DNA from: Ischnura elegans
Lineage: Eukaryota > Arthropoda > Insecta > Odonata > Coenagrionidae
DNA length: 64,000 bases
Reading direction: 5' to 3'
Assembly: GCF_921293095.1 (NCBI RefSeq)
Contig: NC_060248.1
Location: forward strand, 137,714,972 to 137,778,971
Shown here in pieces: positions 16,797 through 64,000 of the stretch (its first letter is position 1; each line of letters opens with the position of its first letter). The notes beneath the pieces were generated by a model. It worked only from the letters and a program-made list of their open reading frames with translations, was not told the DNA's origin and did not search any database. The position numbers and the translations under genes are program-made.

Positions 16797-17274
16797 CCCA
16801 GTGAGAAATGGGTGGTGGAATCCACGTGGAACCCACATGGAAAATTAACGTGGATACCACGTGTTTTTGGTCGTGGAATCAACGTGGAACCCGCGTGGAA
16901 ATTTGGTGGAAAAATTAAAACAGCAGTTGGTGCTGTCCTAAAACCATTAAAACCTCAACCACTCTATATCTAAACCTTCTATATATGTGTCTACGATTTT
17001 TCATGTGCTCTCATGGTTGCCTTTCCACAAATTGTATAAAAATAGAATGTGCGATACATTTTCACATAACTAGCGTGGTTTCAGGATGATAAATGACGCA
17101 ATGTCACCAGAGAGTTAAGTTCCACAAATTAGAAATTCTGTTTAACATTTTATGATAATCACCACAAATCCACTTGAAATCAACGTGGATTCCACGTGGG
17201 TCCAACCACTCAATATCCACCACCACCAAATATCCACCACTCAACGTGGATTCCACCACCCATTTCTCACTGGG
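16797..17274. mobile_element. 478-bp CCCAG-type MITE rich in CCACGTGG words
   Basis: The first 31 bases, starting CCCAGTGAGAAATGGGTGG, are matched exactly in reverse complement at the right end. Each side is flanked by aa. Inside, variants of tggaatccacgtgga, aacgtggaacccgcgtgg and ccacgtgggtcc recur near both ends. It shows the CCCAG start and short A/T duplication of the larger elements in this window, but no coding sequence. Confidence 0.8.
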
Positions 17275-17509
17275 AAAAGGACCTTTGAAAGGTGTCTGAA
17301 CCCAATGATATAGCCAACCATTTCAATCACCATTTTCTTAGCTTCCTTGAAATGACATTTCATCCAAATCTTGCTCCCCAACTACCTAGAGGACAATACC
17401 CAGTCATCTCAGTTTCTAATAACATTTACCTTTGTCCGATATGTGATAAGGGAAGTTAAATTAAGTAGAGTCCCAATTTGGCTTTATAAAAGGACTTTCT
17501 GCTGAGCTT

Positions 17510-17960
17510 GCTGTATACATATTTATTGACTCTGTTCTTGATGGAATAGATAATAATGCAAATATAATTAGCATATATTATATCCTAGAAAAGTTTTTGA
17601 CTCTGTTGACCATGTAAACTCCAGTGCTATGGACTAAGAAGTGTTGCAACAGAATTAATTAATGATAATGAGAATGCAATATGTAACTACATATTGCCTG
17701 TGGAGAAATGAAAAAATTGTCATCCTCGTACCTGGAGGTTATCAGAGGGGTTCCCCAAGGGCTCCATCCTGGGGCCACAGCTATTTCTGTTTTACATTAA
17801 TGACCTACCAAACTCCTTAAATGATGAGGATTTTATGTATTCAGACGATACCAATCATCTGTTAAAGCAGACTGGAAATGTAGTTTTTCCACCTCAAGAG
17901 GGTATCACGAATATGTAGAGTTGATGTATTAAAAATAAGGTTTTAATGCATAAAAGTAAA
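17510..17960 (+). pseudogene. LINE reverse-transcriptase fragment (Jockey/CR1-like)
   Basis: Reading + strand pieces gives KVFDSVDHVN (equivalent of motif A, 'KAFDTVDH') and, about 45 codons on in another frame, SYLEVIRGVPQGSILGPQLF then LFYINDLPNSL and YSDDTNHLL. GVPQGSILGP is the hallmark motif B of LINE reverse transcriptases and YSDD occupies the catalytic position. Frame changes and stops separate the blocks. It is a short, decayed piece of the RT domain with no endonuclease or 3' tail recognised. Confidence 0.75.
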
Positions 17961-18147
17961 TCATCCTATATGCTGTTTCATCCGCCATAAATTAATAAAT
18001 GTATCCGCCTGGAGTGAAGTTCTCAATGCAACTATGGAATAGATAGTCATTGTAACAGAAAATGGCATAATAAAGATAACTACTAATATTTCTGTAGAAG
18101 GTTATTACAAATGTAATTTATGAGGTGCTGTATGGACCGATGTATTA

Positions 18148-18515
18148 TCCCCAACAACACACATTTGGATATACATATGTATATATATTGTATTTTCATG
18201 GGTCACATACATATATATTTTTGTTATGTATTACATCTGTAGTACATATGTATTATTGAATGTATTTCCTTTGTATTCATACATATGTAAAAGTGGCACA
18301 TGTTACACGATAAATACATTTGTATTTTTTGTGTATTTTTGAAATTTGGATACTTATGTAAATGTGGTCAAAAATACACAAAAATACAAATGTATTTATC
18401 GTGTAACACGTACCACTTTTACATATGTATGACTACAGAGGAAATACATACCTATTTAATGTGGTCAAAAATACACAAAATATACATTATGTATATTTCC
18501 TGTAATACTTGGGAG
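18148..18515. mobile_element. TA-rich element with tacatatgta words (CCCAG-like, uncertain ends)
   Basis: The left edge ccccaacaacacacatttgg resembles the end at 57733 read inwards (cccagataacacggcatttg). Both are followed by many copies of tacatatgta/tgtattac words. A possible right edge is gtaatacttggg near 18514. A long hairpin (18285-18432) fills the middle. The target duplication is not clear, so the boundaries are tentative. Confidence 0.4.
18285..18432. repeat. Long hairpin, arms about 65 bp
   Basis: Arms running from catacatatgtaaaagtgg to its complement near 18432 pair with only a few mismatches around a short loop. The ORF across it arises from this AT-rich inverted repeat. Confidence 0.75.
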
Positions 18516-19175: not shown

Positions 19176-19201
19176 CCACGACCACCGAGAGACAAGGCCT
19201 G

Positions 19202-21816: not shown

Positions 21817-21819
21817 CTG

Positions 21820-31372: not shown

Positions 31373-31382
31373 CCCAGATAGC

Positions 31383-31740
31383 ATGCTAAACTTGCTGCAA
31401 GCTTGCTGCAACCTTGTCATGACAAAGTTGCAAGTTTGCAGCAAGCTTGTCATGACAAGCCTGCAAGCTTGCGGCAAGCTTGAATCAAACCTCCTAGTTA
31501 CGCTTTTTCAAACTTGCAGCAAACTTGTCGCAACAAACCTGCGGCAAACTTGTCGCATCAAACCTGCAGCAAACTTGTTGCATCAAACCTGCAGCAAGCT
31601 TGTCATGACAAGCCTGCAAGCTTGAATCAAACCTCCTAGTTACGCTTTTTCAAACTTGCAGCAAACTTGTCGCATCAAACCTGCAGCAAACTTGTCACAT
31701 CACACCTGCTGAAAACGTGTAGTGTCACACCTGCTACATA
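31383..31740. repeat. Subterminal word array, left end of family D copy 2
   Basis: Words such as cttgctgcaa, cttgtcatgacaagcctgca and aaacttgtcgca(t/a)caaacctg recur at least fifteen times. A stretch of about 135 bp (cttgtcatgacaagcctgc ... aaacttgcagcaaacttgtc) appears twice, near 31446 and 31600. These are the inverted counterpart of the right-end array at 37483-37800. Confidence 0.85.
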
Positions 31741-33445
31741 CTAGGAAAACTAGTTCCACACCTACCATTTCTGTAGTGACACTTGCTGAGGAAAAACTGC
31801 CTTAAAATTTCTGCTAAATAAAATGCTCTCCTAAATAATGATCAATTTACAACAACAAAATTGAAAATTTTCTACTCTATCAATTTTTAGTCATTTCACA
31901 TGCAAAAAATTTGGCTGCTAAATTTATTTAATAAAATGGGCAACAAATAAATGCTGAAGAGTTTATTTTTCTCATTAATTATGTACATGTTGAGGCAGCG
32001 GTGGACATACCAAAGATAGATGTCTAGTCATCTATAGTTAATCATTATTAATGAAGTGAGTGAATTACTTACAAACTGAATAGGAAACATCTCAGACAGA
32101 AAAACTTAAAAAAATTTATGACCCCCTCGGCCACACATGGTAATAACTAAATTACAGAAATCTTCAAAATGTAAAAACATATTGCTCGAATTTTATCAAA
32201 ACATTCACAAGTATGCTGATTGGCTTTGAGGATTTAAAATTAAAACTTCATTCTTTTGAATACTTGTTAAGTTATGGGAGTACAAGGCTGTGCATGGAAC
32301 TTACATGGTTACATACTTATAGATCGTTACTGATGAACTTATTAAGCAAAATTATTGTCTTCATCAGCCTGATCCTCGGTCTGTTTATCCTGTCAATCCC
32401 TGAAGAGAAAATAGTAATTACTCCATGTGAAATGATATATCATGTATCATTTGCTTAAATCAGGGAGGTAAATTGAGAAATTATTAACTAATATTCCAAA
32501 AAGAATAAGCAATCAGATTCAATAAATAATATGTCTATATTGTACCCCCACATTCTCATAACGGCGGTAAATGATTCAACTTCCATCAAATCGAATTAAT
32601 GTGGCAGGGAAATGAGAAGCGACTACTTACCTTCTTATTTTCCTGACTTTAGCCTGGTTGAGCCAATTACTCAGACACCCTTTCAGCACCACATCTGATG
32701 CATCAGGGTAGACCCTTCTGCATACACCTATGAAATTATAAAAAACATACTTAATGCAGTATGTTAAAAATTCATTTCAACAATCCATTATTATAATAAT
32801 CTTAGAATATCTTATTGGATGCACTCACGAAAAATAACAGGACACACTGAAGTGCTATAAAATGATTTCTTAACCGAATTCTTCTGAAGTTTGCCCGTAA
32901 GAGAATACAGCTCTGCTACATAGTCATTCTAAGACGACGCAACATATTTTGTAGAAGTGTTCATTCATTTCTTCTACCAACTGCTACCAAACATTGCATC
33001 TAGAGATAAAAAAGATCAGATCAATTAAGAGTTAACAGCTTATACAAGAATAACAAAAATCATGTTTATAGCCAGAAGAAAAATTCACCAAAAAAATTAA
33101 CACAATTGTCATGGTTCCCAGACGGCACAGAACCCTCCGTATCTAATTCGTATGTACATAGTACCCATTGACTAAGGGGATACTATGCCGCTTCGTCGCT
33201 TTTCGTCAATGGATAATTTCCGTTCGCGGCCTGTCGACGAAGCGCGTACGCAGCATGTGAATGCCCGCTACTAAGCACGTACGATTGGATACGAAGCGCG
33301 CAGGAACACGGCACTCAGGCTAATCTCAATCGATTAGGTCGACATTAGATATATCGTAACTCGCACGATCGAAAAATGTATCGAACGCAACACAATCGAT
33401 AGCTACCGACCGTAGCGAGAACCTTGATACGAATCATTATGAATT

Positions 33446-33591
33446 GTAAGTTCTCAATAGGTAAATAACACCATATCATGAATTCTAATTACCATGAAAG
33501 ACTCACGACCGACAAAGTTTTGTCGGTTGTGAGTTTTTCATGGTAATTAGAATTCATGATATAGTATTATTTACCCATTGAGAACTTACAA
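33446..33591. repeat. Long hairpin, arms about 70 bp
   Basis: The arms begin gtaagttctcaatagg and end cccattgagaacttac, and pair with only a handful of mismatches around a tiny loop at cgacaaagttttgtcg. Whether the sister copy has it is unknown, because the window ends before that point. It may be a small foldback MITE inside the element or part of the element. Confidence 0.8.
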
Positions 33592-34371
33592 AACTTACTC
33601 GGCCACTTAAATAACTCTGCGAAAAATGAGATTCTCGTGGCTAATTCACGCACCCCCAGCATCCAGCATTGTTAAGTGGCTCGTACTTACTTGGAAACCT
33701 TGAGATGTTAATGAGAGTAAATTCTTATTAATTTTGACATTAATAAGACATCACATAGCCCACGAGCATTAAAAAGCTTACCCTAAAGCCTGACGAAATA
33801 AAATTTTTAAATAAAAATTGCCGATGAAACAGGATTGCTGACACATCTGCTATTAGTATGATCGAATTCATCAAAATGCAAGCAAAAATTAACGTATAGT
33901 TCAGTCTCAGCTACTAAAACTTACCCATATCAGGCGCTAAAGTATTTGAAAAATTATTTGGGATGAGTAAAAGTCCCTAGGTCACTGCAGTAAATGTATC
34001 ACCCTCTTAAAAATATGAAAGTCCTGCCAAATCACTAGCATAAACACTTGTAAAATAAAACATGTTATCTCTTAGATCACACCTCCGATTTTATACTTAC
34101 TTTGCATGAAGTCACCACCGCAAGAAATTTTAAAGAGGCAGGAAAGAAAAAACCCACAGAAATACAATACATATATTATGTATTTTCTATTGTCAACCAC
34201 AATAATATTTCCAATTTTCTCTTCTTTCCCACATCTAATTTAGCGAAACAATTACTCTTATTCTCTTTCGAATAGAAAATTATTTAAAAGAGGACTGGTC
34301 GATACATACAAACTATCGTCAATACTTTCTCCGATGAACGTCCACTATCACTGCACCAACTTGCACAAATC

Positions 34372-35188
34372 AAATCCACATCCACAAATATGTCACTTCT
34401 GCCACAATGTCTGTCTTCTTGGCGACAGGTAACAGTGAAGCAATGGTACCTTCCTCCAATCTGGGCACCTCCAATTCAGCAAGAATTTTCTCCTCGTCTT
34501 CTCGTCCAAGGCCACAGATTATTTTCTGATATCACAAGGTGCGATGTGAAGCTCAGACACCTAAAATTAATAAATAATAAAATACCATGTAACTTATTAG
34601 GTCAAATCATTTCCAATTTTTGGTATTTCTGCATGAGAAATCAAATTACTAGGCTCGTAAATATAGTAAATATTTTTATGCCTGATATTTTTATTGTTTT
34701 AAACTATAGCATAAGATAATTTGAAATGATGAAAGCCGACGTGTAATACACCATAGGGCAAGCTAAGAAGCAATATTCGAACCTATAAACTTGGCAGCTT
34801 ATTCCTAGTTTCTCCTTTAACCACACGTTTACCGAATGAATTAATACAAAAAAGACAACTAAAATGCAAGAATTTTCAAAAGAATTGCTGCTACAATATT
34901 TTGAATCACCATTTTTAGTACTGAATAGTACTATAGTACTTCAGTACTGAATAGTTCGGGATGTTGATGCATCAACATCCCGAAGCCACTTCTAACTTAA
35001 AATTACATCCAAATAATTACAGCGAGAAAGAGTACATACCTCACAGCTTTTCGTAGGGGTGAAATGTTTTCTTCTTATCGCCCAAATGCACTTCTTCTTC
35101 AACTCAGGATCTTTTGGAAAGCTAAAACCTTGAACCATGTCCCGGAGTTTCCATTACGTCATCCCGACAATAAACACACGAAAGGCAT
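34372..35188 (-). pseudogene. THAP-domain gene of family T, copy in 33-35 kb
   Basis: Exon 1 runs from the ATG at 35188 (MPFVCLLSG) to a donor after 35040, reading FSFPKDPELKKKCIWAIRRK and HFTPTKSCE. Exon 2 starts at 34560 after ttaattttag and reads ELHIAPCDIRK. This supplies the N-terminal cysteine half, the FxFPKD block, the conserved W and the CxxH half of a THAP zinc finger. Exon 1 has a stop and a frame change near its start, and exon 2 a stop after DIRK. The piece is only the DNA-binding module. A catalytic domain is not seen in the element. Confidence 0.7.
34957..34982. repeat. Perfect 26-bp palindrome in family T body
   Basis: A spacerless palindrome centred on TGCA, half-site cgggatgttgatg. 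The sister element has it near 62646-62671 with a single change. It stands about 60 bp beyond the THAP exon 1 donor, in the intron. Confidence 0.85.
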
Positions 35189-37482
35189 TTTTAACAAAAA
35201 TATCTCACAAACACGTTTCTGAAGCCCAGTGAATGAAATTAAAGAATAAGGGAAACTTCACTATTACCAGACACTCTATTTTTCACAAACTTAACCACAA
35301 AAATCCCTGAAATGTGGTAAGACGTTACGTAAACGACGCGATCTCCAACGCCTTGTGCTAGCTTGTGAAGACATGTGATCTTTCTAGGAGGATATGGCAC
35401 GATGGCACCAGATGGCACCACCCGCGTAAGAAAATAGTCCCAGACCGAATACAGTTTTATCGATGAGATACAATTTTATCGATGCATATGAATTTGCCAG
35501 TCCTCTTGCATCTTTATTCGTCATTAAAGGAAATAAATAAACAAAACCTTCTAAGTAACTTCCTAAGCGCGATTTTTGTATCTTGATTGTCCACCCTCGT
35601 ATTTAGGTACGAAAACTTCCTGTGCCGTCTGGGTAGTATGCATATGTAGTATGTATGCACGTAAGTGCATATGAAATAACAAAAATCCAATCATACCATA
35701 ATTGTTTAATATTTCATTGGACAATAATCCATACGCACTTCAAAATTATGTTGTACTTGAGTATTTTTATAGCACTTTGAATTCCAAACACCGAGTGTCT
35801 GGCGAGCTCCAGATTTACATCAATTTTGAAACTTTCTTACAAAAACTTAATTGTTCTTTCATCAAACAATCATACATTTTTTGGATCAGGAAGGTAGCAC
35901 ACAAATTATCATTATTCACTTACCAACTTTGGCTCAAATGAGGTTTCTTCACTTATCCTACGGCAGAGTTTGATGAAATCCTCATCTGCTGTCAATGGCA
36001 ATCAGCTGAAATACATCTCCTTCACAGCACAAGAAAGCAGGTGTGATATGGCATTCCTTTTGCTTTGGGTCATAAGCCAATAAAGCATCTACTTTCCTCT
36101 CCAAGTGAGAAAACCCAGGTGCCATTTCTTCCATCCACATGAGGAGCTGGCCATTCTTTAGTTTTAATTTACTGCAGCCTATAAATATGAAATTGTTATA
36201 AATACAATAATACCAATTGATTTGCTTATATTATACTACCTTAGCACACTTGGTACTTAATCATCATAAATCCTGCCTAAATGCTTATCAAACAGGTGCT
36301 AACCATAGATTTTAATACACCACTAATTTTTCTGTAAACAAACACGAGTAATTGATTACTTTACATCTCAAAAATTTTAAGAATTGCAATCTTATTGCAC
36401 AGAAACAGCTTAGAAATGTGTTACTTATGCCCTTGAGTGAAACATGCCTGTTAAGAATGTACTGGCAGAAATGTACGATATATGCATGGGCATTTGTAAA
36501 AAAATTGAACTAAAGCATAAATCAATGCCTAAATTATAATGATTAGAGAGAGTTCAACTGATGGCTATGTTTAGAACAGCCAATTAACTGCTATTATTCT
36601 TCGACATATTCCCAATAGTTATTCATTTTCAAGAAAAATCCTTTATAAACGAGTTTACTGAGGTTGAGACTAATACTATAACGTCATAAAGAACTGCTAA
36701 CAAAGTGGATTCTACCGCGAGAACCCTGATATTTCAACTTAAACCGTCTGAATCGAGTCTTTTCACAATGCCAGCGAAAGCAAAGATCATGCTAAATTGT
36801 AATTACGCTGAGAATAAAATAATGAATAATCTTAAATAATTATTGGATAGCAATTGGCGGTTCATTAATGATACATAGTATCGAATAGAAAAAAAATGTT
36901 CTATTTACTCACATTTACATGGTTAACACAGCAGAGATGAGTAGATGCTGACAGAGGCAACTTCTTAAATCTCTTCGTGCCGCTAAAAGCCACTGTTTCC
37001 GAGCATTCAGTAATCTTCCAATCCCCTTTTGCCAGTATTCACTACGAAACACGGATTATTTTCTTCTTCCATAGCACACTTCAACGTAAATTTGCTTGTA
37101 AAACAAGAATTTACTTCACGGCTAAATTCACAATCAAAAATAACGGCAACCGTTAGGTCACGTGGTACATAAGACTGCCGCCGGGCGTTTTGGCGCGAGT
37201 TCAAAATATTAAAATCCAAATCCAAAATATTAAAATAAGTTCGTAATATAATGGGAAAAGTTTTGTACTTGAGTTTTTTTATGAGTATGAAGATAATTAT
37301 ATCAAATAACATTATATTTTTATATTACTATAAATCTCATTAGGTATATATGTATTATTAAAATCTTACAACCAAGCCAAATAGGCTGGAAAGAGGCATG
37401 AAAAATTCAACCTTGAGATGACAAGGAAAAGTCAAGCTTCACGTAAGCTAACATGCTATGTGTGGGTAGTAGCAGGTTTGAT

Positions 37483-37800
37483 ATGGCAAGTTTGCTGCAG
37501 GTGTGATATGGCAAGTTTGCTGCAAGTGTGATATGGTAAGTTTGCTGCAGGTTTGATATGGCAAGTTTGCTGCAAGTGTGATATGGCAAATCTGCTATGG
37601 GTGCAATATGGCATGTATTCTGCAGGTGTGATGTACAAGTCTACGGCTTGTATGTGTTCACATAACTTGTAAGCTTTATTCAAGCTTGTACATAGCTTTC
37701 ATGCCAGAATAGGTTTGTCACAGCAAGTTTGCTGCAAACTTGCCACGACAAGGCTTGTCGTGACAAGCCAAGGACAAGCCTATGACAAGTTTGCTGCAAG
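37483..37800. repeat. Subterminal word array, right end of family D copy 2
   Basis: About five 25-bp gatatggcaagtttgctgca units, then shorter words on cttgcagcaa and gacaagcc up to the TIR. Copy 1 has about eleven units at the same place, so the array changes length between copies. Confidence 0.85.
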
Positions 37801-37819
37801 CTTGCATGCTATCTGGGAT

Positions 37820-41219: not shown

Positions 41220-41422
41220 GAGACTGTAGTGGCAGCTGTCGCTATTGAACAGAGATGGCTACTTGTGAAGACTGAGAACAGACATGGAGGCATTTTAGTC
41301 ACTGAAATCAAAAAATACTGGGAAAGGAAAAGGACAAAAAAGAATTGAAAGTATCCTGATGTAAGTAATTCTTCATCTATGGAGACTGATGATGACAGAA
41401 TACTGAAACCACCATCACCTGG
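41220..41422 (+). CDS. Putative exon inside family A element, unrecognised
   Basis: After ttccag the + strand reads ETVVAAVAIEQRWLLVKTEN then RHGGILVTEIKKYWERKRTK. It continues past a stop into METDDDRILKPPSPG before gtaaatg. It may be an N-terminal segment of an element-borne protein such as the one in family D, but I cannot assign a family. Polarity and splice borders are suggestive only. Confidence 0.3.
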
Positions 41423-41737
41423 TAAATGTTTGCATATAAGAATTTGCTTTTTTGAGTGCTTTATCATGTGCAAATGTAAGTGTAAAGCTTATCTATTCTG
41501 TTTTCAGTTGCATGAGTGCCTCCTAAGAAGGAAAGGTTGCACTTAAAGATTCCTCAAACAATGTTGGAGTGAAGGAGCCTTAAACTTTTCTATAGAATTG
41601 GAGTGTTATTTCTGAAGAATCAGTGAAGTCCAATTGTTAGCACTTGGTGCACCCAATGAGGTCAGAGGTATCGGGGAAGATTTCTCAGGATTTGCACCAG
41701 GTAAGGTCCTCCATTTCTCCTTCCAATGTTTCCGCAA

Positions 41738-41842
41738 GCAACTCACCAATCGTCTCCAGGGATTCTGGAATCCAAGGTTGGATTCCTAAATCGTTTGGTT
41801 CTTGAATCCCTGAAGACGATGGGTAAGTTGCTTGTCGAAACG
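41738..41842. repeat. Imperfect inverted repeat, possibly Penelope-type terminal piece
   Basis: aagcaactcaccaatcgtct ... and its near-complement cgatgggtaagttgcttg enclose ggattc...gaatcc, followed by tcgaaacgttt. Hairpins with cttcaggg and cgaaacgtt are typical of Penelope-like terminal repeats in arthropods as I know them. No coding part is attached. Confidence 0.35.
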
Positions 41843-44359
41843 TTTGAATGAGATCTGGAGGACCTTATCCAGTGCAAATCATGAGAAATCTTCACTGCTA
41901 TTGTTTGCTGGGAAAGAACCTGAAAGAGGAGTATTTGGTTGGTATTTCATTTACATTGTCAACTGTTTGACTTCATAGCCTCCTAAGTGTTAATATGCTC
42001 ATGGTACTTTGTATAGATTATCACTTTGAGTCTTAAACTTAAGTTATGGTACCATCATCACCTCCTTGTTGATATTTAATTTTATGATAACTCTGGGATG
42101 TACTTAGAAATTAAAAATGCTGTGCCACTATGTTCAATGGTTCTCAGCAATTACCATAGATAATTAATTATCTGGTCATCTCATTTTTCAGATTTTATTT
42201 CATGAAGGAAAGATCTTCGAACATCATGTTTAAGAGCAGTCAGAACAATCAAATGAGGACTGGGCTTAACAAAAGTCAAAAACAAGTGTTCTACCCTAAC
42301 ATAGAATGAGTTAGCTGAGTCTTTCTGTTTGAAGGGACACTCAGAAAACAAGAAGTGCATTTTAGCTCCATTATAAATGTCTCATTTGGTAAGTATTTTT
42401 TAATCATTGGTGCTTTCGATTTACTCTTCCCTTATCTTGGAATACAGTTGAATGAAAAGAGCTTTTCAGCATATGTTCATATTTCATATTCAGCATAATA
42501 TCTAATCCAATTATGATTACCTTGCAGGGAGTGTAAAAGCCAAAATAAGCCTGATTTGATACTATCAGTGTGAAAAGAAGCATCAGGGAATGATCCCAGG
42601 CCTCAAAATACAGAGCAGAGAAAGGGAATAAGAAACGAGAAAGTGTTCTGAAAGGCAACTCAAAGGGGATCTCGAAGAAACATGATTCTTTCAATTTGCC
42701 TATCTCAGAACCTGTCAGTGTGGAAAGGCAGTTTTGTTTGTAGTCTCATAACATGATTGTGGGATAAGGTGAGGTCAGCGACTGATCACTGTTACGACAG
42801 ACACAGCTATGTCATTAATGCTCCTTGATTTTTGCCTGACAAGGGAGAAGGAATGTTTCTTCACCTTCTTAAATGCCCTATTTTTTATGATTTTTCAAAA
42901 TGCCAAATGCTGCTAGGAATAGGTCCAAGTTTGGTTGAATAGCCTTTCGTATAGCTGAAATAAATTAATTTTACTTCATTTCTTTCCTGTGAACCTAGCT
43001 CAAATGCTATAGAATGCCCTACCCTTAAACTGCTCCATGGAGTGGTGAAGCTTACGTCTTATTCCATATATGGAGGCATAAAATGCTGCAGGAACGCTAG
43101 GGTGTGTTAGCTTGTGGTGATCAGCTTCCTTATTGTCATAGAACACAGCAATTTAATAATAGGGCATTCATAATAGGGCATCGTGCTTGCTATGGCAGTG
43201 AACAACTGAATGTGTACATTGTATGAAGAAAACTTCTTTAAAAATAACATTTCCTAATTACCACATGCTAATGTTCCCTGTCACCACAACCTTGAATGTG
43301 TATGTCCTTGTATGAAATGGCTGTGTTCCATGGTAATTAAGTAGTTGACCACTAAAATGAGAGGCCACATTAAATAGTGCACACTGGTGTTGCTATTGCA
43401 TTTCATGCCTCCGTGTTCGGAATAAGACTTCAATATGTTATGTCAAATATAACTTTACAAAACATTCCCCTGCCTGTTAGGATCTGCTGCAACAGAAAAT
43501 TTGAAAGTAAATTAAATCTAGACTCCAAAAAATTGAATGCAAGTTTCTGTTAAGACCTCAACCCTTACTATGTAATTAATGATGTAAAACTATAATTTGT
43601 TTATTCTCCTATTTTGATATTGGAGTCATGTGTGAGATTGATATTTTTCGTACTGTTCCTCGTGGGGGATCTATTGTACTTGAGGCTTTAACATAAATAT
43701 TGCTGTAATTCTATAATTTCCACTTGAAAATGATCATGCTATCTTTTGGCTAGCATTATATTTTGTTTTGTATTGATGGAGACCTATTTCTTTCCATTTT
43801 CGGTTATGAACTACCCTGTAGCTCATTGTTTTTTCCAACTGTCATTTCCCCAGGTGGGGCTGCTCTGATTACAAAATCAGTTGCTCTGTGGTGTGTTAGG
43901 TGCTTTTGATATCATTGCTGTTGTGACCTCTTAATACCGTTTGCTTGAATATCTAATGGATTTTAATGTTTGCAGCGAAAATAAAAGTTTATTTTCAAAA
44001 TTCTGTCAATGATTGATTTCTCTATTAAACCCAGACCTATCAATTATTATTTGAATTTATTGGAATACCCCGCCATGGTAGCAGTATCAACGTGGTATCA
44101 AAAAATCCCGCTAGATGGCGCCACAGTCGCGATGCTGCCCAGTTAGTTCTCGAAAGTGCCGGTAGGTGTCCCTTGTGTCTGTGACGTCACCGAAAAGAAA
44201 CTGTTGCTTTATCGTTGGCGACATTTAACGGCATTTTTGCCCCTTCGTTGCTGCCTCGTTGCCGTCACGTTTATAGCAACGTATTCAGCCGTTTCTTTAT
44301 CGTTGATGGAAAGTTGCCGTAATTTAAGGGGCAACGTCCTGTTCTGTGCTGGCTGGGTA

Positions 44360-46478
44360 CCCAGCAAGGAAAAACGGATTTCCATCAGATTTGACACTGA
44401 TTTCCAACAGGTTTGACGCACTGATTTTCTTCTCCTTTGAATCTGTTTTGAAAATTGAAACAGCTGGAAATCAATAGGAAGACAGTGGGAAATCAGTTGT
44501 GAAGGTCCAACATGGCGGCTGTTTTCCCACTCATTTCCATGAATGCATGGTTTAACTCTGGTTTCCACTGTTCAACAGATTTGAATCCCGTTTCCCCGTT
44601 TAAGCTATTTCGAATCTGTTTTCCACCTTCATACCTATCTGAATCTTGTTTGCGACTCGATTCTCACCTCCTTATGACCTGCTGATGCATAAGTTAACTT
44701 CGGATACATGAGTTAACTGCTGATACCCGAGGCGGAAATAATTATTTCCGCCAATTCCAAGTTTCGCAGAGCTGCACTTAACATAGGTTTCTAACTTCAC
44801 ATACTAAATCTCTATCGTCAATCTGGATGTAGACTCAGCTGAAAAAAGTTTACAAAATACAGCCTAACAAAATGAACTTCATGTAAGTCTCCCACCACAA
44901 CAAAATAACACAGTCTCTATTAACGTATTTATTTAGTATGCACAAACCATATTGGAAGTACATATTCAATTGAAAATACATAGTCATCTAATTTGGTAAA
45001 CTTCTGAGGCAGAATACACTTAAAATCTCAATTTTATGCGTTAGAAATAATTTAGGAAAACACAGAATTTACAGATGAAATCTCATTAGAAGGAGAGTTA
45101 GACAAACTAGTTGTGCTTTTTGTAATTGTTTATCAGTTCTTGAAAAGTCATCGAAAGGCAAAAGTTTTGCCAAGAGTAACAGAACAGTCACTGCACCAGA
45201 ACAACAACAACTTACATCAGATTCCACAATCTTGAATTATCGAAGAGCACAAATTTTTCCGTGATTAACAGAAGAATCACAACACTAGAAAATATTTCAG
45301 ATGCCTTTATGAAAGAAAGACTTCTTTACGTGACTTATGAAAATAATGCTGGTTCAGCATTAAGCCAACGATATCTGTATGTTACACTACAGAAACTTGC
45401 CATTAATGTTTAAAAACATGAACACGGTCGTTTCACTTAGCACAAACAAACCAGCAATATACACAATACTCTGAAAATCCTGGTAGGTTCTCTTCGGCGA
45501 CGTAACGCAAGTACATATTATACATATTGCATACAAAAATATTAGTAATCGCTCAAAATCTGTTGACACAAGATAAATTATTCAATGAAAACACAAAAGA
45601 TCGAAATCACATCAGGCTTCCACTGTCGCTTGAAGACCAAAGAGACGCACGAATGGCTTAATTCAACGCTGCGGGAATTTAGCACTGGTTAAATAATACT
45701 GATATGATTATTTTTTCTCCGTGCCCTAATACTTAAGCACAAAACAGAACCACAAGCACGTAAACCATTCGTAAACATTCAGAACGGAATCGGCGTTGCT
45801 ACTTTGGTTTTCTATCTTTTGTAGTTAGGTGGCAGCACTATGCCCGTTATATTTTTTTTAAAGGCGAAGTCGCAAAGTGAGGTTTAAACGTGCTTAAGCC
45901 GTATTAGCCACTTAAATTGCATGCCCGGTGAGTTCCAGCAGGTGAAATGATGCACAATACAAAATGTGGATGATGTACAGTAAATTTTTTTCATCACCCG
46001 TAAATTTTTGCAAGACGGCAAGGTATACATATGTCCTCTACGTCATTATTTTATTTCTGACCATGATTTTGAACTTACATTTGTATACTCATTGACACCT
46101 CAGAATAAGTAATTTTCCAATCAACGCAGTCGTAAAGCCTGTGTGAGATAGGTTTTTGTAAGACACTCATTTCAATAGAATTTCAAATTCATTCTACAAT
46201 TCAACTCTGTTGGAAAGCACTCGTGGAAAACACTTTCAAGCCAATAAATAAGGAAAAGAGTTTCAAATGACATTCAATTCAGTGTCAATACAGTCCATGT
46301 GGAAGACGGCTGGAAACCAGTTACAATTGAAATGAGGTTCAAATCACTTCCTTCCATTTCCTGTCCGCTGGAAACCAGTGGAAATCAGTGTCAAGACAGA
46401 GTCAAATCAGATTTTAAGGATTCAGATCAGATTCAAATGAGGTTCAAAACTGTTGGAAATGAGTTTTTCTTTCCTGGG
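44360..46478 (+). mobile_element. CCCAG-type element, family B, copy 1
   Basis: The left end CCCAGCAAGGAAAAACGG and the right end, reverse-complemented, CCCAGGAAAGAAAAACTC are imperfect inverted ends. TA stands on both sides. The left TA (44358-44359) is the same TA that ends family A. Words on ggaaatcagtgtcaa and gattcaaatgaggttcaaa fill both subterminal regions in inverted orientation. The body is non-coding apart from stray ORFs and carries a CTCF-like word (45826-45840). Confidence 0.8.
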
Positions 46479-46607
46479 TAAAAAGTTAGACCAGTGGAAA
46501 TCAGTGTCAAGACAGAGTCAAATCAGATTTTAAGGATTCAGATCAGATTCAAATGAGGTTCAAAACTGTTGGAAATGAGTTGGGACTAAAAGATCAGTCA
46601 ATCTCAT
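46479..46607. repeat. Spacer with a second copy of the family B right-end array
   Basis: 46491-46581 repeats 46375-46463 almost exactly but lacks the terminal ttttctttcctggg. It looks like the truncated edge of a third family B copy between the two complete ones. Confidence 0.7.
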
Positions 46608-48713
46608 CCCAGGAAAGAAAAACTGATTTCCAACCGTTTTGAACCTCATTTGAATCTGATCTGAATCGTTAAAATCTGATTTGACTCTGTCTTGACACTG
46701 ATTTCCACTGGTTTCCAGCGGACAGGAAATGGAAGGAAGTGATTTGAATCTCATTTCCATTGTAACTGGTTTCCAGCTGTCTTCCACATGGACTGTATTG
46801 ACACTGAATTGAATGCCATTTGAAACTCTTTTCCTAATTTATTGGCTTGAAAGTGTTTTCCACAAGTACTTTCCAACAGAGTTGAATTCTAGAATGAATT
46901 TGAAATTCTCCTGATATGAGTGTCTTGTAGAAACCCATCTCACACAGGATTTACTACTGCGTTGATTGGAAAATTACTTTTTCCGTGGTGTCAATGAGTA
47001 TATTTAATTCAAAATCATGGTCAGAAATAAAATAATGACGTAAAGGAGGAAACATTTACTTTGCCGTCTTGCAAAAATGCACGGGTGATGAAAAATATTT
47101 AATGTACATCATCCGCACTTCGTATAGCACATCATTTCACCTGTTGGAACTCACTACCACCGATATACCAAACGGTACATTACAAATAAATTTTGTACAA
47201 ATAATTGAAAAGTAACTTGGGGACTTGGGATTGAAAGCACGTAAAAACCTCACTTCGCATTTAAAAAAATATAGCCGGTATAGTGCTGCCACCTAACTAC
47301 GAAAGATAGCAAACCAAAGTAGCAACGCCGATACCAGATTTCGTTTTGAATGTTTACGTGCTTGTGGTTGTCTGTTTTGTGCTAAAGTTATAGGGTGTGG
47401 AGAAAAAAATAATCATATCAGTATAATTTAACCAGTGCTAAATTCCCGCAGCGTTGAATTAAGCCATTCGTGCATCTCTTCAGGTTTTAAGCGACAGTAA
47501 AATTCTTGATGTGATTTGGATCTTTTGTGTTTTCTTTGAATAATTTATCTTGTGTCTACAGTTTTTGAGCGATTGCTAATATTATTGTATGCAATATGTA
47601 TAATATGTACGTGCGTTACGTCGCCGACGAGAACCTACCAGGATTTTCAGAGTATTGTGTATCTTGCAGGTTTGTTTGTGCTAAGTGAAACGACCGTGTT
47701 TATGTATAAACAGTATGGCAAGTTTCTGTAGTGAAACATACAGATATGGTTGCCTTAATGCTGAATCAGAAATATTTTCATAAGGCATGTAAAGGAGTCT
47801 TTCTTTCATAAAGGCATCTGAAATATTTTCTAGTGTTGTGGTTTTTCTGTTAATCACGGAAAAATTTGTGTTCTTCGATAATTCAAGATTGTGAAATCTG
47901 ATGTAAGTTGTTGTTCTGGTGCAATGATTGTTCTTTTACTCTTGGCGAACCTTGTGCCTTTCGATGAGTGTTCAAGATTGTTAGAACTGTTAAACAGTGT
48001 GGAAAAGCACTACTAGTTTGTCAAACTCTCCTTCCAATGAGATTTCATCTGTAAATTCTGTGTTTCCCTAAAATATTTCTAATGCATGACATTGAGATTT
48101 TAAGTGTATTCAGCCTCAGAAATTTACCAAATTAGATGACAATGTATTTTCAATTGAATATGTACTTCCAATAGGGTTTGTGCATACCTAATAAATACGT
48201 TAATAGAGCCTGTGTTATTTCATTGTGGTGGGAGACTTACATGAAGTTCATTTTGTTAGGCTGTATTTTGTAAACTTTTTTTCTGCCGAGTCTACATCCA
48301 GATTGATGATAGAGATGTAATATGTGAAGTTAGAAACGTTGGTTGAGTGCAGCTCTGCGAAACTTGGAATTGGCGGAAATAACTCATGCATCAGCAGGTC
48401 ATAGGAGGTGAGAATCGAGTTGCAAACAAGATTCAGATCGGTATGACGGTGGAAAACAGATTCGAAATAGCTAAAACGGGGAAACCGGATTCAAATCTGT
48501 TGAACGGTGGAAACCAGAGTCAAACCACATTCATGGAAATGAGTAGGAAAACAGCCGTCATGTTGGACCTTCACAACTGATTTCCCACTGTCCTCCTACT
48601 GATTTCCAGCTGTTTCAATTTTCAAAACAGATTCAAAGGAGAAGGAAATCAGTGCGTCAAACCTGTTGGAAGTCAATGTCAAATCTGATGGAAATCAGTT
48701 TTTCTTTGCTGGG
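46608..48713 (-). mobile_element. CCCAG-type element, family B, copy 2 (inverted)
   Basis: It begins CCCAGGAAAGAAAAACTG and ends ...tttctttgctggg. AT stands on both sides (46606-46607 and 48714-48715). It is the inverted copy of 44360-46478 along its whole length, with several percent of differences. The mirror CTCF-like word is at 47281-47295. Confidence 0.82.
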
Positions 48714-54108: not shown

Positions 54109-56747
54109 TAATTCTAACTACAATCAAAAGCTCAGAGTTGATGTACCTCTAGATTATACCAGTATGAGTGCAAATGGAATTCAGAATTTAACAAATGTCA
54201 ACCCGATCGTAAGATATTCATTGTACTCACACATGGCAACTGCATTTCAGCTGTGAACTCCCATCTAAGTTCTAAGTTGATAAAACATGTTAGCATATGA
54301 CTTTTGACAAACCATCAATAACATATCCCCTGCAACGGGAAATTTTGGATTCGTATGGAGGTGGATGATTTTCATGCAATAAAATAAATCCATACAGGCA
54401 ATTTAACATTTATTGATGTACTCAAAACATTCTCTAATACTAGTAACACAGTTAACATGTATTGTAGTAGAGAAAACGTCTAGTGTCCATCGCCATCAAT
54501 CCTGGAAAATGAGAATTGTAACATTTAATAACCAGCTAAGTAATAAGTACTTAAAGTAACTTAAAATTGTTCCACATATTCTCTAATATGGTTATTCAAT
54601 TTCAAGAAAAACACTTCATGCACGAATGAATTTATAGTGAGACTAATTATACTTTTATGCCATGAAAAACTGCTAACATAGTGGTTTCTAACGCGAGAAC
54701 GCTAACTTGAAATATTTCAACTTAATCGATCTAAATGAATTGTATTTTAAATATACAAGTTAAGCCAAAGATCAACCTAAATTGTAATCACAGTGAGAAC
54801 GAAGTAATAAATAATCTTATATAACTATTGGGTGGAAAGAAGTAGTTCATTAATTGCATTAGTCCTAAAAATTGTTGATACTTAAGTTCGTTGATTTACT
54901 ATCGATTGTAAAAATATGTTCCATGTACTTACATTGAAATAGTCAGCGCAGCAGAGATGGGTTGATGCTGACAAGGCATCTTCTTCAAATCTCTATGTGC
55001 TGCAAGGATCCACTTTTTCCGCAAACCCGGTGAATAAAAACTTTATCCGGCGTTGATTGCATTGTGATAGTATGCAATTGGCATGAAACAGTACTTTTTT
55101 CGATTCCTTTTTGGAGGTTTTCACTTAGAAAAACGTTATATTTTCCTCATCCATACGTTCTTAAACATACAGCTGCTTGTAAAATATTGTCTTAAGGCAC
55201 AGATTAATTCACAAAGTCGGAAACTACTGTATCTACGAGTGTAAACATCATTCATGGTAAACATAATTCCAGTGCCAATGGCTGTTAGGTCACGTGGTAT
55301 AGAAGATGGCCGCCAGTTGTTTTGGCGCAAGTTTCAAAATACGATTTTTAATACGTTATCAGTACGTTATACAATGGGAAAAAATTGTAACTCAAATTTT
55401 TAATTCGCAAAATATGTATTTACCGCAGTTACTACATTCTTTTACAGAACTAAATTTCTCTGGAACAGGTGCACCTGCTTCTTAGAGGTGCGAGGTGTAC
55501 CTTCTCGAAGGTACCTGGGGGACTTTTCAGATATTTTCCTCTTCAACAAATGCTTTAATTTTAATGGGTTACTGAAATGATGCATTACGTTCACCTTATT
55601 ACCATTTTATACACGGTGTTCTGAATTGAGATCCATTAGCATTTGAGGGGGCAAATAGATACATAAGTATATTATTTTATGCTTCCATAGCCCAAATAAA
55701 GTGTGTAAGCGCTACTAGCTGGAAGATATTAAATTTTTCTTAAAATCAGCTCATTAACTGCACCCCTTCCCTGCAGAAATGCAATGCAATTTTTTTAAAG
55801 ATGTAGGTATGATAGTATGTAACATGTAAGTGTAGATGTTTGGTGAGTGAAGGAGGTCTAAGGAAAAGTAGTGCCATGGGTGGAAGTTGCGGGCAAAAAG
55901 TTTTGCCTGAAATTGGTAAATACATTGGAATTAGAATAAACCATTGCAAATTATTTTATTGGCTGCTAACTACTTTGAAAAACCCTATTTGATATTTCAA
56001 CTTTCATTGCTTGTGCAATCATTTAGAAGTACTTATTATTTATTTTTACCTCGTATATTCATTTTTTACTATCTTACCAAGCTTACTTAAATGCTTAAAG
56101 TTTGTATCATAAATTGAGACTAATATCAGAAGTACTTCTGATATTAGTCTCAATTTATGATGCAGCCCTTTCTAATGCCATCCAAATAACGCAACTCTCC
56201 ACAAGCCATGATTGTGGGCAGTGGGTACCTTTGAACCCATGTGAAATTCATCTATGAAATAACAAATATAAAATTGTAACCCTTCTTGAAAAAAATTAAT
56301 GGACATTAAAAATTGACCACTCCATAGCCCAGGATTCCTAATTCCATTAAGTATCAATGGCTGATAAACATTATAATAATTTCACTGTTACAAATAAATT
56401 TAAGAACAATTGCAGATGAGCAAATAAAATATCAGATCTCATGTCACATTAGAATCCAGACCAGTTGACTCACTTGGAACTTTTCCAGAATAGTTCCAGA
56501 CCAGTTGAAACTCATAGAATATTTCAGCATAGTTACAGAATAGATCCAGACTAGATGCAGACCATCGATAATTACAGTACAGTTACAGACCAGAATTCCA
56601 GACTAGTTACAGACCATTTTCCTTTGCCTCTCTGAAATCCAGACCAGTCCAGTTCTGTTACAGACCAGTTACAGAACAAAATTTAGCCTTTCAGACCAGT
56701 TACAGACCAGATCCAGATTAGTTACAGACCAAATATTTTTACCTGGG
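54109..56747 (-). mobile_element. Relative of family D with different ends (family E)
   Basis: 54420-55330 aligns over long stretches with the right half of family D (for example gcagcagagatgggttgatgctgac, split at the usual variants, and the ggtcacgtgg...gatggccgcc patch). From there to the right end the sequences part. Instead of the gatatggcaag array, words on ccagaccagttacag fill 56455-56735, and the element ends ...ttttacctggg at 56747. The left end was not found; it may lie left of the nested element. The strand is that of the shared gene. Confidence 0.6.
56106..56161. repeat. Perfect spacerless palindrome, 56 bp
   Basis: The half-site of 28 bases starting atcataaattgagac and ending cagaagt is followed at once by its exact reverse complement. 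No mismatch and no loop. It lies inside family E. Confidence 0.9.
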
Positions 56748-56772
56748 CAAGGTCAAATCTGTGCTAGCTGGG
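56455..56772. repeat. Subterminal word array of family E and an outer CCCAG end
   Basis: About fifteen variants of ccagaccagttacag lie in direct order. After the family E end at 56747, 25 bases later a second end of the same kind appears (tgtgctagctggg, ending 56772), suggesting family E inserted just inside the terminus of another CCCAG element. Confidence 0.65.
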
Positions 56773-57330
56773 ACCTCGACATAATTGGTAAATGAAAAAA
56801 TTTAAAACTTATGTCTGGAATCTAGCAGAGAAGCCAAACTTTCATTTGCATTCAGAATACAGAATTAGTACTAAAATTACAGACTTCACAGAATACTGAC
56901 TGCCTATATGAATTGAAAAAAAATAAAATTGAAAGGCCTTGAGCTCCTATTCAGGTCTTACAAAAAGATATATTTTTGCATGACTTTTAAACTTGACTTC
57001 TTCTTTTTCACCTTTCAGAAAGTGGCTAATTGTGCAGAGTTGGTTTCCTTAATTCAGGTTTCTTCTTGTGCAATGGGTTACAACGCTTGTTCCGTTCTAA
57101 CATTTTTTTCTATTTTCCAACTCAAACCATTGTTTGTACTTGATTTATCTTTGTGCCATTTGTTTTAACTAAGTTTCACCTACTGTTTGCTGGCCCTTAA
57201 TGCTTGTTAGCAATATTCATGGCCACACTTGTTATTTGTGTGTATTATTTTATTTTTCTCTTTGAATAAATGTTTTATTATCTGTATGTTCTGGTTTCCT
57301 TATATTTATTCATCCGTTTGATCCATATTG
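56773..57330. other. AT-rich stretch without recognised gene
   Basis: The open frame at 56929-57168 is Phe/Leu-rich and lacks any motif. An aataaatg word at 57265 could be a polyadenylation signal. Nothing else was seen. Confidence 0.3.
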
Positions 57331-57359
57331 ATATTAAGTGGATGTGGGTCAGAAAATCA

Positions 57360-57733
57360 ATATGTATAATTCGTGTACGAGGGCCTGCAGATACATATGT
57401 ATGTTACATGTAAGGATATTCAGATTTCCAATTTGTAATACGCATGTATACATACATCCTGAGGGACTTTTGAGCCACTTTTACGTGAAATATACAGACG
57501 TAATACGATTGTATTCCATTGTATACATATGTATAATTCATGTATGGGTATTCAGATTTCCAATTTGTAATACGCACGAATACATACATCCATAGGGACT
57601 TTTGAACCACTTCTACGTGAAATATACCGATGTAATACGATCGTATTCCAACTTATACATATGTATTTGGGCACGTATTTTTTGTGTATTATTGATGTAA
57701 TACAGATGTAATACAAATGCCGTGTTATCTGGG
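57360..57733. mobile_element. Right end of a TA-rich CCCAG-type element
   Basis: It ends ...aatgccgtgttatctggg at 57733 followed by at. A 132-bp unit (attcagatttccaatttgta ... tacatatgtataattc) is present twice in tandem, at 57418 and 57550. Words on tacatatgta and gtaatacag recur. The left end is not in view. Related to the element at 18148-18515. Confidence 0.6.
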
Positions 57734-59350: not shown

Positions 59351-59357
59351 TCAAGGT

Positions 59358-60650: not shown

Positions 60651-60850
60651 AATAAAAGTGTTATTTTCGGGTTTCTTGTGTCCGAAACCCTAAGAATTGA
60701 CATATTGGTCAATGAAATTCACACTTTTGTCTATCTCGATTTTTTTAACATTGAAACCCCAAGAGGCAAATTCAAATTTTTGGTTTGGACCTACTTTGTG
60801 AGGTCAAAAGGTCAAAATTGTAAAATTTTGCTTACACTCAACAAAACTTA
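60651..60850. other. Edge of the satellite, AGGTCA-type words continue
   Basis: Non-coding. It includes tgaggtcaaaaggtcaaaat near 60798, again a pair of half-sites, before the THAP exon on the other strand begins. Confidence 0.4.
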
Positions 60851-61060: not shown

Positions 61061-61271
61061 GATATTTCGTAAATATCTTACTGGTGGAGAAATACTAAAA
61101 AAACACCAAAATCGGTGAAATTCTCGGCTCACAGAGGATGATAACAGCCGATCACTCATAAGCCGCCACTGACAACAAGCCAAATGAAGGGGATGGTAGT
61201 GTCGGTCGCGCCACAAGTGGCAAAAGTTGGAGTTTGAATTAATGCGCGGGACCCGTGTTCAAATTTTGACT

Positions 61272-61290
61272 GCTACCGCCACCTAGTGGG
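61272..61290 (-). promoter_or_regulatory. CTCF-like motif between divergent THAP exons
   Basis: The minus strand reads CCCACTAGGTGGCGGTAGCA, a close match to the animal CTCF core CCA(C/G)(C/T)AG(A/G)(G/T)GGC. It lies in the 280-bp gap between the two divergent THAP starts. Motif match only. Confidence 0.4.
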
Positions 61291-61341
61291 GCCTCCTTGG
61301 TAATGTAAACTCTATGAACGCGACTTGTGTGTTAGGCGGCC

Positions 61342-61736
61342 ATGATGGCGAAAACTTGCTCGGGAACGAAGAGGAAGCGTGGTGTGTATTGCGCTGCTTT
61401 TTGGTGCAATAATTTTTTTGGGTGCCGGATAGATGAACCGGTATCCTTATTTTATTTTCAAAAAGATCGTAACAGGTAAGTGAAATCCTTGAAGTTGGAG
61501 GTATCAATGAATTTATTGTTTCCTTATGCACACTCTCACGGCATGCTTTTTTTTGAGGGCGGTTGAGTGGCTGAAGTTTGCTCTCCGGGAAGATTTGCTG
61601 GAGAAAGACATTAAAAATATGAGGCTCTGTAGCGACCATTTCGTTGATAGAGATTATAAATGCAAGACGCCACGTGCATTATTGCGGGCAGATGCAGTTC
61701 CCAGCCGTTACGAGTGGAAACCAAGCGAGCGTTGTG
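61342..61736 (+). CDS. THAP-domain gene, two exons, 3' part unknown
   Basis: Exon 1 is 61342-61475 (MMAKTCSGTKRKRGVYCAAF, then WCNNFFGCRIDEPVSLFYFQ, then KDRNR), ending AG before gtaagtg. Exon 2 is 61558-61736 (AVEWLKFALREDLLEKDIKN, then MRLCSDHFVDRDYKCKTPRA, then LLRADAVPSRYEW) and ends before gtgagt. Together they make an intact THAP finger: Cys pair, FxFQKD, W, LCSDHF (CxxH), and the closing AVPxxY. Both frames are open and the phases agree. No ATG in frame lies further upstream nearby. The following exons are not seen; a CCCAG-type element starts 340 bp downstream. It may be a host THAP gene or the first exons of a transposase gene. Confidence 0.78.
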
Positions 61737-62075
61737 GTGAGTACCTAATTATAATTTTGTTAGTGCACATTTATATGTAAATGTATTTAAGTAACGGAAA
61801 ATGGCCGATTTCTTCATTCTATGGATTTCCTCGTGGTCACGCTTTGAAGTTAGAAGGACATACTCGGGCGAAAATATGACTTCGTTAATCTTATCTAACC
61901 AGGTTCCCACCTTTGTATTCGCATAACAGTCCGTATAGCTCTGCTTAAATGTTATAATTAAATTTGTTCGGAAGAACGCAGTTCCATGCGGTCGGCCGCC
62001 ATTCCGTGAATGCACACCACGCTTTTTGATGGGCATGCTTCGATGGACGCTTTGGTTTATAATTTAGAATACGTA
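61737..62075. other. Intron-like stretch between the THAP exons and the next element
   Basis: No conserved ORF. The sequence ends tacgta before the CCCAGACGG terminus. Confidence 0.35.
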
Positions 62076-64000
62076 CCCAGACGGCACAGGAAGTTTTCGT
62101 ACCTGAATACGAGGGTGGACCATCAAGATACAAAAATCGCTCTTAGGAAGTTACTTAAAAGGTTTTGTTTCTTTATTTCCTATTACCTTTGTTTCTTTAT
62201 TGACTATTTTCTTTCGCGGGTGGTGCCATCGTGCCATATCCTCCTAGAAAGATCACATGCCTTCACAAGCTGGGAGAAGCCGTTGGAGATCGCATCGTTT
62301 ACGTCACGTCTCACCACATTTCAGGGATTTTTGTGGTTAAGTTTGTGAAAAATAGAGTGTCTGGTTATGGTGAAGTTTCCCTTATTCTTTAATTTCATTC
62401 ACTGGGCTTCAGAAACGTGTTTGTGAGATATTTTTGTTATAAATGCCTTTCGTGTGTGTATTGTCAGGATGTAATGGAAACTCCGGGAAATGGTTCAAGT
62501 TTTTAGCTTTCCAAAAGATCCTGAGTTGAAGAAGAAGTGCATTTGGGCGATAAGAAGAAAACATTTCACCCCTACGAAAAGCTGTGAGGTATGTACTCTT
62601 TCTCGCTGTAATTATTTGGATGTAATTTTAAGTTAGAAGTGGCTTCGGGATGTTGATGCATCAACATCCTGAACTATTCAGTACTAAAAATGGTCATTCA
62701 AAATATTGTAACATCAATTCTTTTGAAAATTCTTGCATTTTAGTTGTCTTTTTTTGTATTAATTCATTCAGTAAACGTGTGGTTAAAGGAGAAACTAGGA
62801 ATAAGCTGCCGAGTTTATAGGATTGAATATTGTTTCTTAGCTTGCCCTATGGTGTATTACACGTCGGCTTTCATCATTTCAAATTATCTTATGCTATAGT
62901 TTAAAACAATAAAAATATCAGGCATACAAATATTTACTATATTTACGAGCCTAGTAATTTGATTTCTCATGCAGAAATACCAAAAATTGGAAATGATTTG
63001 ACCTAATAAGTTACATGGTATTTTATTATTTATTAATTTTAGGTGTGTGAGCTTCACATCGCACCAATTGTGATATCAGAAAATAATCTGTGGCCTTGGA
63101 CGAGAAGACGAGGAGAAAATTCTTGCTGAATTGAAGGTACCCAGATTGGAGGAAGGTACCATTGCTTCACTGTTACCTGTCGCCAAGAAGACAGACATTG
63201 TGGCAGAAGTGACATATTTGTGGATGTGGATTTGATTTGTGCAAGTTGGTGCAGTGATAGTGGACGTTCATCGGAGAAAGTATTGACGATAGTTTGTATG
63301 TATCGACCAGTCCTCTTTTAAATAATTTTCTATTCGAAAGAGAATAAGAGTAATTGTTTCGCTAAATTAGATGTGGGAAAGAAGAGAAAATTGGAAATAT
63401 TATTGTGGTTGACAATAGAAAATACATAATATATGTATTGTATTTCTGTGGGTTTTTTCTTTCCTGCCTCTTTAAAATTTCTTGCGGTGGTGACTTCATG
63501 CAAAGTAAGTATAAAATCGGAGGTGTGATCTAAGAGATAACATGTTTTATTTTACAAGTGTTTATGCTAGTGATTTGGCAGGACTTTCATATTTTTAAGA
63601 GGGTGATACATTTACTGCAGTGACCTAGGGACTTTTACTCATCCCAAATAATTTTTCAAATACTTTAGCGCCTGATATGGGTAAGTTTTAGTAGCTGAGA
63701 CTGAACTATACGTTAATTTTTGCTTACATTTTGATGAATTCGATCATACTAATAGCAGATGTGTCAGCAATCCTGTTTCATCGGCAATTTTTATTTAAAA
63801 ATTTTATTTCGTCAGGCTTTAGGGTAATCTTTTTAATGCTCGTGGGCTATGTGATGTCTTATTAATGTCAAAATTAATAAGAATTTACTCTTATTAACAT
63901 CTCAAGGTTTCTAAGTAAGTACGAGCCACTTAAGAATGCTGGGGATGCGTGAATTAGCCTTGAGAATCTCATTTTTCGCAGTTATTTAAGTGGCCGAATA
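62076..64000 (+). mobile_element. CCCAG-type element with THAP gene (family T), second copy, cut by window end
   Basis: It starts CCCAGACGGCACAGGAAG right after ta. It matches 33700-35633 in inverted orientation throughout, so it is the same family as the element nested at 33117-35633. The right end lies beyond the window. It carries the same two THAP exons on its + strand and the near-perfect palindrome at 62646-62671. Confidence 0.88.
62443..63235 (+). pseudogene. THAP-domain gene of family T, second copy
   Basis: Exon 1 is 62443-62588 (MPFVCVLSGCNGNSGKW...; after a frame change DPELKKKCIWAIRRKHFTPT and KSCE). Exon 2 starts at 63043 after ttaattttag (VCELHIAP) and a late frame gives ILAELKVPRLEEGTIASLLP, ending YLWMWI before TGA at 63233. 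This copy keeps the initial CVLSGC intact, unlike the other. One frame change in exon 1 and others in exon 2 break it. Only the zinc finger and a short tail exist; no catalytic domain is seen. Confidence 0.72.

Follow-up and report, generated by a model that had tools for sequence, protein, structure and literature searches.

The 64,000-nucleotide stretch of the Ischnura elegans genome analysed here (C3:137714972-137778971; the window) harbors a group of transposons that start with CCCAG and carry short repeated words inside their tips. We regard it as probable that they belong, as members that are non-coding or have decayed, to TRC, the animal branch of the CACTA/EnSpm cut-and-paste transposons. 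The element class is already known, and the combination of conserved tips with family-specific subterminal repeats is described for plant CACTA (PMC2613891). The search of the genome (1.72 Gb, 110 contigs) revealed at least 13 open and well-separated TRC transposases in one animal, with alike tips, different words where the ends were found, and a candidate BEN-domain gene in one group. Membership in ISL2EU, which an earlier note on this DNA had proposed, was not supported: the tips start with CCC, the duplications are AA, AT, TA and AC, and a coding CCCAG element specifies a Transposase_21 protein.

TRC elements are characterized in print by a CCC core, a 2-bp duplication and a Transposase_21 transposase (PMC1636069, PMC4298943). 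All six complete CCCAG...CTGGG elements of the window (F1, F2, F3, F4, F5a, F5b; Table 1) start with CCCAG, as does a complete coding element of 9,009 bp (G000:C13:7208904-7217912), the one transposase place whose whole element was readable from contiguous stretches. This C13 element is flanked by TA on both sides, its tips read CCCAGGTAAAAATT... and CCCAGCTAAAATTT... (in longer reads CCCAGGTAAAAATTTTTTC and CCCAGCTAAAATTTTCTAC), its words center around TTC(A/G)GTAG, and its frame of 774 amino acids contains the Transposase_21 domain (31 bits, cut-off 28.6). A second copy of the frame, together with the right tip, is located on C14, and the C13 element also contains an apparent inserted foreign piece. 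Within the window, decayed transposase pieces precede the right end of F6 on the expected strand (tblastn E 7e-7 and 0.018; 78% DNA identity over 201 bases, E 2.8e-25), and the first 13 bases of the F6 tip are those of the left tip of the C13 element. Transposase_21 was found at 42 places of the genome, 26 of them over the cut-off; the 13 open frames (638-882 amino acids) exhibit the conserved D, D, E and D-x-M-H-x4-G columns, and no pair exceeds 54% identity. The assignment to TRC is highly probable for F6 and the families with A-rich tips (F1, F5), and quite probable for those with CCCAGNNAGCAC-like tips (F2, F3, F4, F7). F7 shows 97% identity over 961 bases to an insert that adjoins a TRC transposase in locus L048.

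The ten CCCAG positions of the earlier note carry the pentamer on the stated strand in 10/10 cases, and its count in the window shows no clear excess (73 vs 61.7 expected; 7/100 shuffles as high). The real signal is that the CCCAG ends are paired, inverted and flanked, and not the number of pentamers. At 62076 a second copy of F3 begins with its left end. The right ends listed at 56747 and 56772 do carry CCCAG, with the correction that the element ending at 56747 sits 25 bp inside the one ending at 56772. The listed 2-bp A/T duplications proved correct for five of the six complete elements, whose flanks are identical (AA, AT, TA, TA, AT). The sixth, F3, is flanked by TT and TA. Its joined flanks were used as a query and 40 places (of 42 rows) cover all 240 bases; the two empty copies that were read (L067; window ~1171-1260) exhibit a single TA (CATGGT-TA-GTATGC), thus indicating that F3 is a TA insertion that lost one A on the left. 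The borders of F4 are fixed by its genome copies, because 40/40 scored left-end matches (of 67 candidates) start at the first C of CCCAG and 39/40 scored right-end matches (of 64 candidates) extend to the last G. Four further long F4 copies are all flanked by 2-bp duplications (TA, AT, AT, AC). These four were read as possible autonomous elements and rejected, since their extra length consists of a non-long-terminal-repeat (non-LTR) element and other insertions. A supposed empty site of F4 in L048 was likewise rejected, because the likeness ends 11 bp short of the insertion point. In one F4 copy (L037) the two F4 flanks around an insert overlap by 8 bases; the insert harbors a frame of 394 amino acids without a Pfam family over the cut-off (L037:3547-4728, + strand), and a related piece is apparently present in the C13 element. 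F4 and F5a have one TA in common (44357-44360), as the insertion point of F5a is precisely the right-hand flank of F4. Between F5a and F5b, outside the element, a tipless stretch of 92 bp (46490-46581) is identical to part of F5a, namely the inner array of its right end.

Subterminal words were tested at 15 ends in the window, alongside 15 control pieces from it, each against 200 dinucleotide shuffles. Eight of the 15 ends rank above all of their shuffles: F1 and F2 do so at their two ends, F5a and F5b at a single end, and the ends at 56747 and 57733 complete the eight. One of the 15 controls also ranks above all its shuffles. At 33117 a single shuffle of 200 is as high, and the remaining ends of F5b and F5a are equalled by 10/200 and 25/200, respectively. 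Little distinguishes the ends at 35633, 62076, 39245 and 44357 from their shuffles (equalled by 25, 43, 47 and 200 of 200, respectively), and a 5-mer test of F4 was weak (30/300 left, 11/300 right). The claim that each family has its own word thus stands clearly in five of seven families, weakly in one (39245) and hardly in another (33117/62076). Read inward from the tips, the words agree between the two ends of F2 and F5 and are thus inverted, as the earlier note had seen, and the 8-mers common to both ends are more often inverted than direct in F2 (54:17), F5a (30:8), F5b (31:10) and F4 (8:3); F1, with its palindromic word, has an even ratio (11:11). The right-end array of F6 is composed of CAGACCA (10 times) and TTACAG (8 times) in a single orientation. 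Yet another word (AAGGGTA/CTTACC) accompanies one more CCCAG-tipped stretch, which starts at L043:7235.

Of the 17 transposase loci fetched, 9 allowed a right end to be assigned; L043, L044, L046, L047, L048, L051, L054 and L057 were left out, their right end being unclear, interrupted or that of a close repeat. Eight of these nine ends have words above all 200 shuffles and the ninth is equalled by 3/200, a result that is, like their CCC start, partly by construction, because for most of them GGG was sought beside word-rich DNA. Two of the nine start with CCCAG. Past the CCC, the tips have A at positions 10-11 in 9/9 and at position 9 in 8/9 cases. Two families whose transposases are 33% identical have the first 14 bases CCCTGGTGAAAATG in common and differ in their words (GGCCACA vs ACTGTTC). 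When the families are compared in all 36 pairs, the likeness of the tips correlates with the identity of the transposases (r 0.48, p 0.016). No such correlation is seen for the words with k=7 (r 0.03, p 0.40), with k=6 (r 0.23, p 0.16) or with k=5 (r 0.32, p 0.11); the closest transposase pair (54% identical) has the most alike words. The words therefore seem to turn over faster than the tips, although the comparison covers a mere nine families and is weak as a test. In line with the earlier note, the families keep alike tips and differ in their words.

We somewhat favor the interpretation that the words are protein-binding sites. The arrays could also have no binding role and represent by-products of local duplication at transposon ends, which is possible but rather improbable: it is favored by the tandem-like look of some arrays (F2, C9_103) and by F4, which despite its weak words moves in numerous near-identical copies, yet the two ends of F2, F5a and F5b carry the words in inverted orientation, they are present at eight of the nine transposase-linked ends, and in maize En/Spm the subterminal repeats are bound by TNPA (PMC2613891).

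A protein that might read the words is suggested by the C13 element, which harbors, upstream of the transposase and on the other strand, a gene with one exon that appears coiled-coil-like by eye and another with a BEN domain. A profile of eight relatives of the BEN exon retrieved BEND6 (7yul, E 7.4e-6) and RE55538p (4ix7, E 1.5e-4) from the PDB, with the next match at 0.07; the latter structure we take to be the BEN domain of the fly protein Insensitive. The first exon of the gene presumably resembles BEND5, a likeness that was not used here. Pfam calls BEN at 13 places of this genome, and seven of these overlap the 49 relatives of the C13 BEN exon. At 3 of the 42 transposase places such a relative is found on the opposite strand no more than 12 kb away, against an expectation of 0.04 pairs for a distance of 15 kb; in a fourth pair the two are 18 kb apart on the same strand. 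A weak BEN call in L045 (E 0.081) was discarded, as it gave no alignment with the C13 exon, and the predicted structures of the BEN exon were too poor for use (mean predicted local distance difference test scores 42.6 and 52.5). No report of a BEN gene inside CACTA/EnSpm elements was found in searches of an open-access library. BEN domains can bind DNA palindromes, such as ACATGT in the case of NAC1 (PMC7764960), and this ability led us to propose the BEN protein as a TNPA-like reader. It is the best candidate for this role, but the assignment, made from sequence, is tentative.

Taken together, a Transposase_21 transposase from coding relatives would recognize the near-constant tips with their CCC core and insert the elements at 2-bp, mostly A/T targets that become duplicated; the sequences suggest both steps, and their biochemistry is inferred. 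The word arrays inside the tips would be binding sites of a second element-encoded protein, like TNPA in maize En/Spm, for which the BEN-domain protein of the complete CCCAG element is a candidate, and families would retain the tip and change the word. The combined proposal, i.e., TRC elements with a divergent BEN gene that reads a family-private word, with word and BEN changing together rapidly while tips and transposase stay, is rather unlikely to hold in all its parts. Several observations weigh against the main interpretation given above. F4 and F3 are without clear words, and most of the nine right ends were found by the search for GGG adjoining word-rich DNA. The C13 BEN exon alone scores 19.0 bits, below the Pfam cut-off of 23.2, and of five BEN relatives sent to Pfam one passed the cut-off and one had no match. 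The BEN gene was seen in one related group of families, to which all three pairs belong, and among the opposite-strand first exons of six TRC elements, chosen by eye, one pair was convincing (E 4e-4) and the others were not. No coding copy with F2, F3, F4, F5 or F7 tips was found, and F2 and F6 carry ISL2EU-like THAP DNA.

The latter observation leads to the alternative that the families with CCCAGNNAGCAC tips (NNAGCAC; F2, F3, F4, F7) are non-autonomous ISL2EU elements moved by a THAP-DDE transposase and only those with A-rich tips are TRC. F2 contains a decayed THAP exon plus intron (- strand, ~36532-36980) with 76-80% DNA identity to the THAP exon of an ISL2EU gene in L035 (THAP domain 25.6 bits, cut-off 23.9); for F2 and the stretch beside F6 together, identity to parts of this exon and intron is 76-82%, and the match of the THAPexon_L035 query in the window reflects DNA likeness only. 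F3 has a THAP-like exon about 0.4 kb inside its tip (- strand, 35032-35135; E 0.0061, under the cut-off), which recurs in the second copy near 62475-62633. Many YqaJ and DDE_Tnp_4 genes are present in the genome, and 18 DDE_Tnp_4-YqaJ neighbor pairs document that ISL2EU elements exist there. ISL2EU is nevertheless described with an AT duplication within A|AT|T, a terminal inverted repeat (TIR) that usually starts with GG, and a THAP-DDE transposase plus a YqaJ protein (PMC4482050). The window elements have CCC tips and flanks AA, AT, TA and AC, the target context of F2 is C|AT|C, and THAP DNA occurs in F2, F3 and beside F6 without DDE_Tnp_4 or YqaJ. The DDE and YqaJ proteins that the earlier note proposed to look for in the longest elements have no match in the window at E 0.1 when those of this genome's ISL2EU elements are used, unlike the TRC transposases, which do match; inside F1, F2, F3, F4, F5 and F7 no transposase remnant of any class was found. 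Six YqaJ loci (from a search in which the best 150 of 309 candidate places were scored) showed no CCCAG borders in the stretches read, which did not reach the true element borders. An F3 end in L031 was rejected as the border of a YqaJ element, because it belongs to a separate insert, and in the three YqaJ frames examined with Pfam (L032, L034, L036) the YqaJ domain is joined to the Mutator-like transposase domain PF20700, which represents another transposon type. Since tips and duplications fit TRC better, the ISL2EU alternative is unlikely.

That family-specific THAP proteins read the words, whatever the transposase class, is very unlikely: THAP remnants lie in or beside three CCCAG families and THAP is common in this genome (2,278 first-look candidates, of which the best 150 were scored), yet F3 with its own THAP exon has little word array, the complete C13 element shows a BEN gene, and not one of the 150 scored THAP places is located within 15 kb of any of the 42 Transposase_21 places, which is weak evidence because 0.1 were expected. 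The THAP clue of the earlier note thus remains ambiguous, the remnants being real and no intact THAP gene having been found inside any CCCAG element. A THAP gene first considered part of the transposase element in L041 was rejected, as it occupies a strip between two separate elements whose borders are visible in copies. An exon fragment akin to that of F3 is located at L041:6991-7157, between neighbors that end with CCCTTACAG (reverse complement) and start with CCCCAACG, each with its own word. Just left of the second F3 copy (61336-61740, + strand), two stretches together appear THAP-like by eye; Pfam returned a weak unrelated match for the first.

Table 1. CCCAG elements and other features of the window (positions counted from its first nucleotide).
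Feature	Positions	Strand	Description
F1	16797..17274		complete, 478 bp; flanks AA/AA; palindromic word around CCACGTGG
F2	31373..37817		complete; flanks AT/AT; words around CTTGCTGCAA / AAACTTG; interrupted by F3
F3	33117..35633	-	complete, 2,517 bp; nested in F2; target TA, one base lost at left
F4	39245..44357		complete, 5,113 bp; flanks TA/TA; without coding match
F5a	44360..46478		complete, 2,119 bp; flanks TA/TA; directly at right flank of F4
F5b	46608..48713		second copy of F5 family, inverted, 2,106 bp; flanks AT/AT
Second F2 copy	1..3651		cut by window start, without right tip; F3 site empty (~1171-1260)
Second F3 copy	62076..64000	+	left end, TA before tip; continues to window end
F6 right end	56380..56747	+	word array plus tip, CCCAGGTAAAAATATT on other strand
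Remainder of another CCCAG element	56748..56772	+	last 25 bp, end at 56772; cut by F6
F7	56773..57733	+	right end at 57733; word TACATATGTA
Decayed TRC (Transposase_21-type) transposase pieces	55533..55936	+	ahead of F6 right end, to last codons (VNTLELE-stop)
THAP-exon-like and intron-like DNA	54566..55031	-	beside F6, strand opposite to transposase pieces
Frame of 1,477 amino acids	25539..29972	-	by eye retrotransposon gag-pol-like (zinc knuckles, reverse transcriptase, integrase)
Frame of 321 amino acids	50090..51055	+	by eye like a fragment of a non-LTR reverse transcriptase
Frame of 186 amino acids	58120..58680	-	by eye GIY-YIG nuclease domain-like, perhaps Penelope-like element

What merits further attention is the BEN gene, together with the large number of open families. 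With many TRC families and a named candidate for the word reader, changes of end recognition become testable by pairing proteins with words. If the combined proposal is true, a single genome would offer a naturally formed collection of BEN domains with different recognition specificities, and the transcription factors with BEN domains may be related by descent to proteins that bind transposon ends.

Among known systems, ISL2EU (PMC4482050) is alike in its 2-bp AT duplication and in the THAP DNA found in some elements here, and differs in its GG tips, A|AT|T target and coding capacity for THAP-DDE_Tnp_4 plus YqaJ. The published TRC elements of Tribolium, Aedes and Hydra have similar CCC tips. 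SmTRC1 and its kin (PMC1636069; Aedes TIR CCCAGTCAAC) have the CCC core, the 2-bp duplication and Transposase_21 in common with our elements, whereas here many families lie side by side, with strong word arrays and an opposite-strand BEN gene in a complete CCCAG element; in the accessible text of that paper the word 'subterminal' is absent. Spongebob / EnSpm-4N1_HM of Hydra (PMC4298943; TIR CCCAGCCAACATTGAC) also has a 2-bp duplication and is called a member of TRC, but the families are other ones, and in that study the transposase was unreadable. Plant CACTA elements (maize En/Spm, soybean Tgmt; PMC2613891) differ in their CACTA tips and, in Tgmt, a 3-bp duplication. Their conserved tips and family-specific subterminal repeats correspond to the arrangement described here, and they encode a second, poorly conserved DNA-binding protein, TNPA; TNPA-like proteins are derived from spliced parts of one gene, whereas the BEN gene of the C13 element is located on the other strand.

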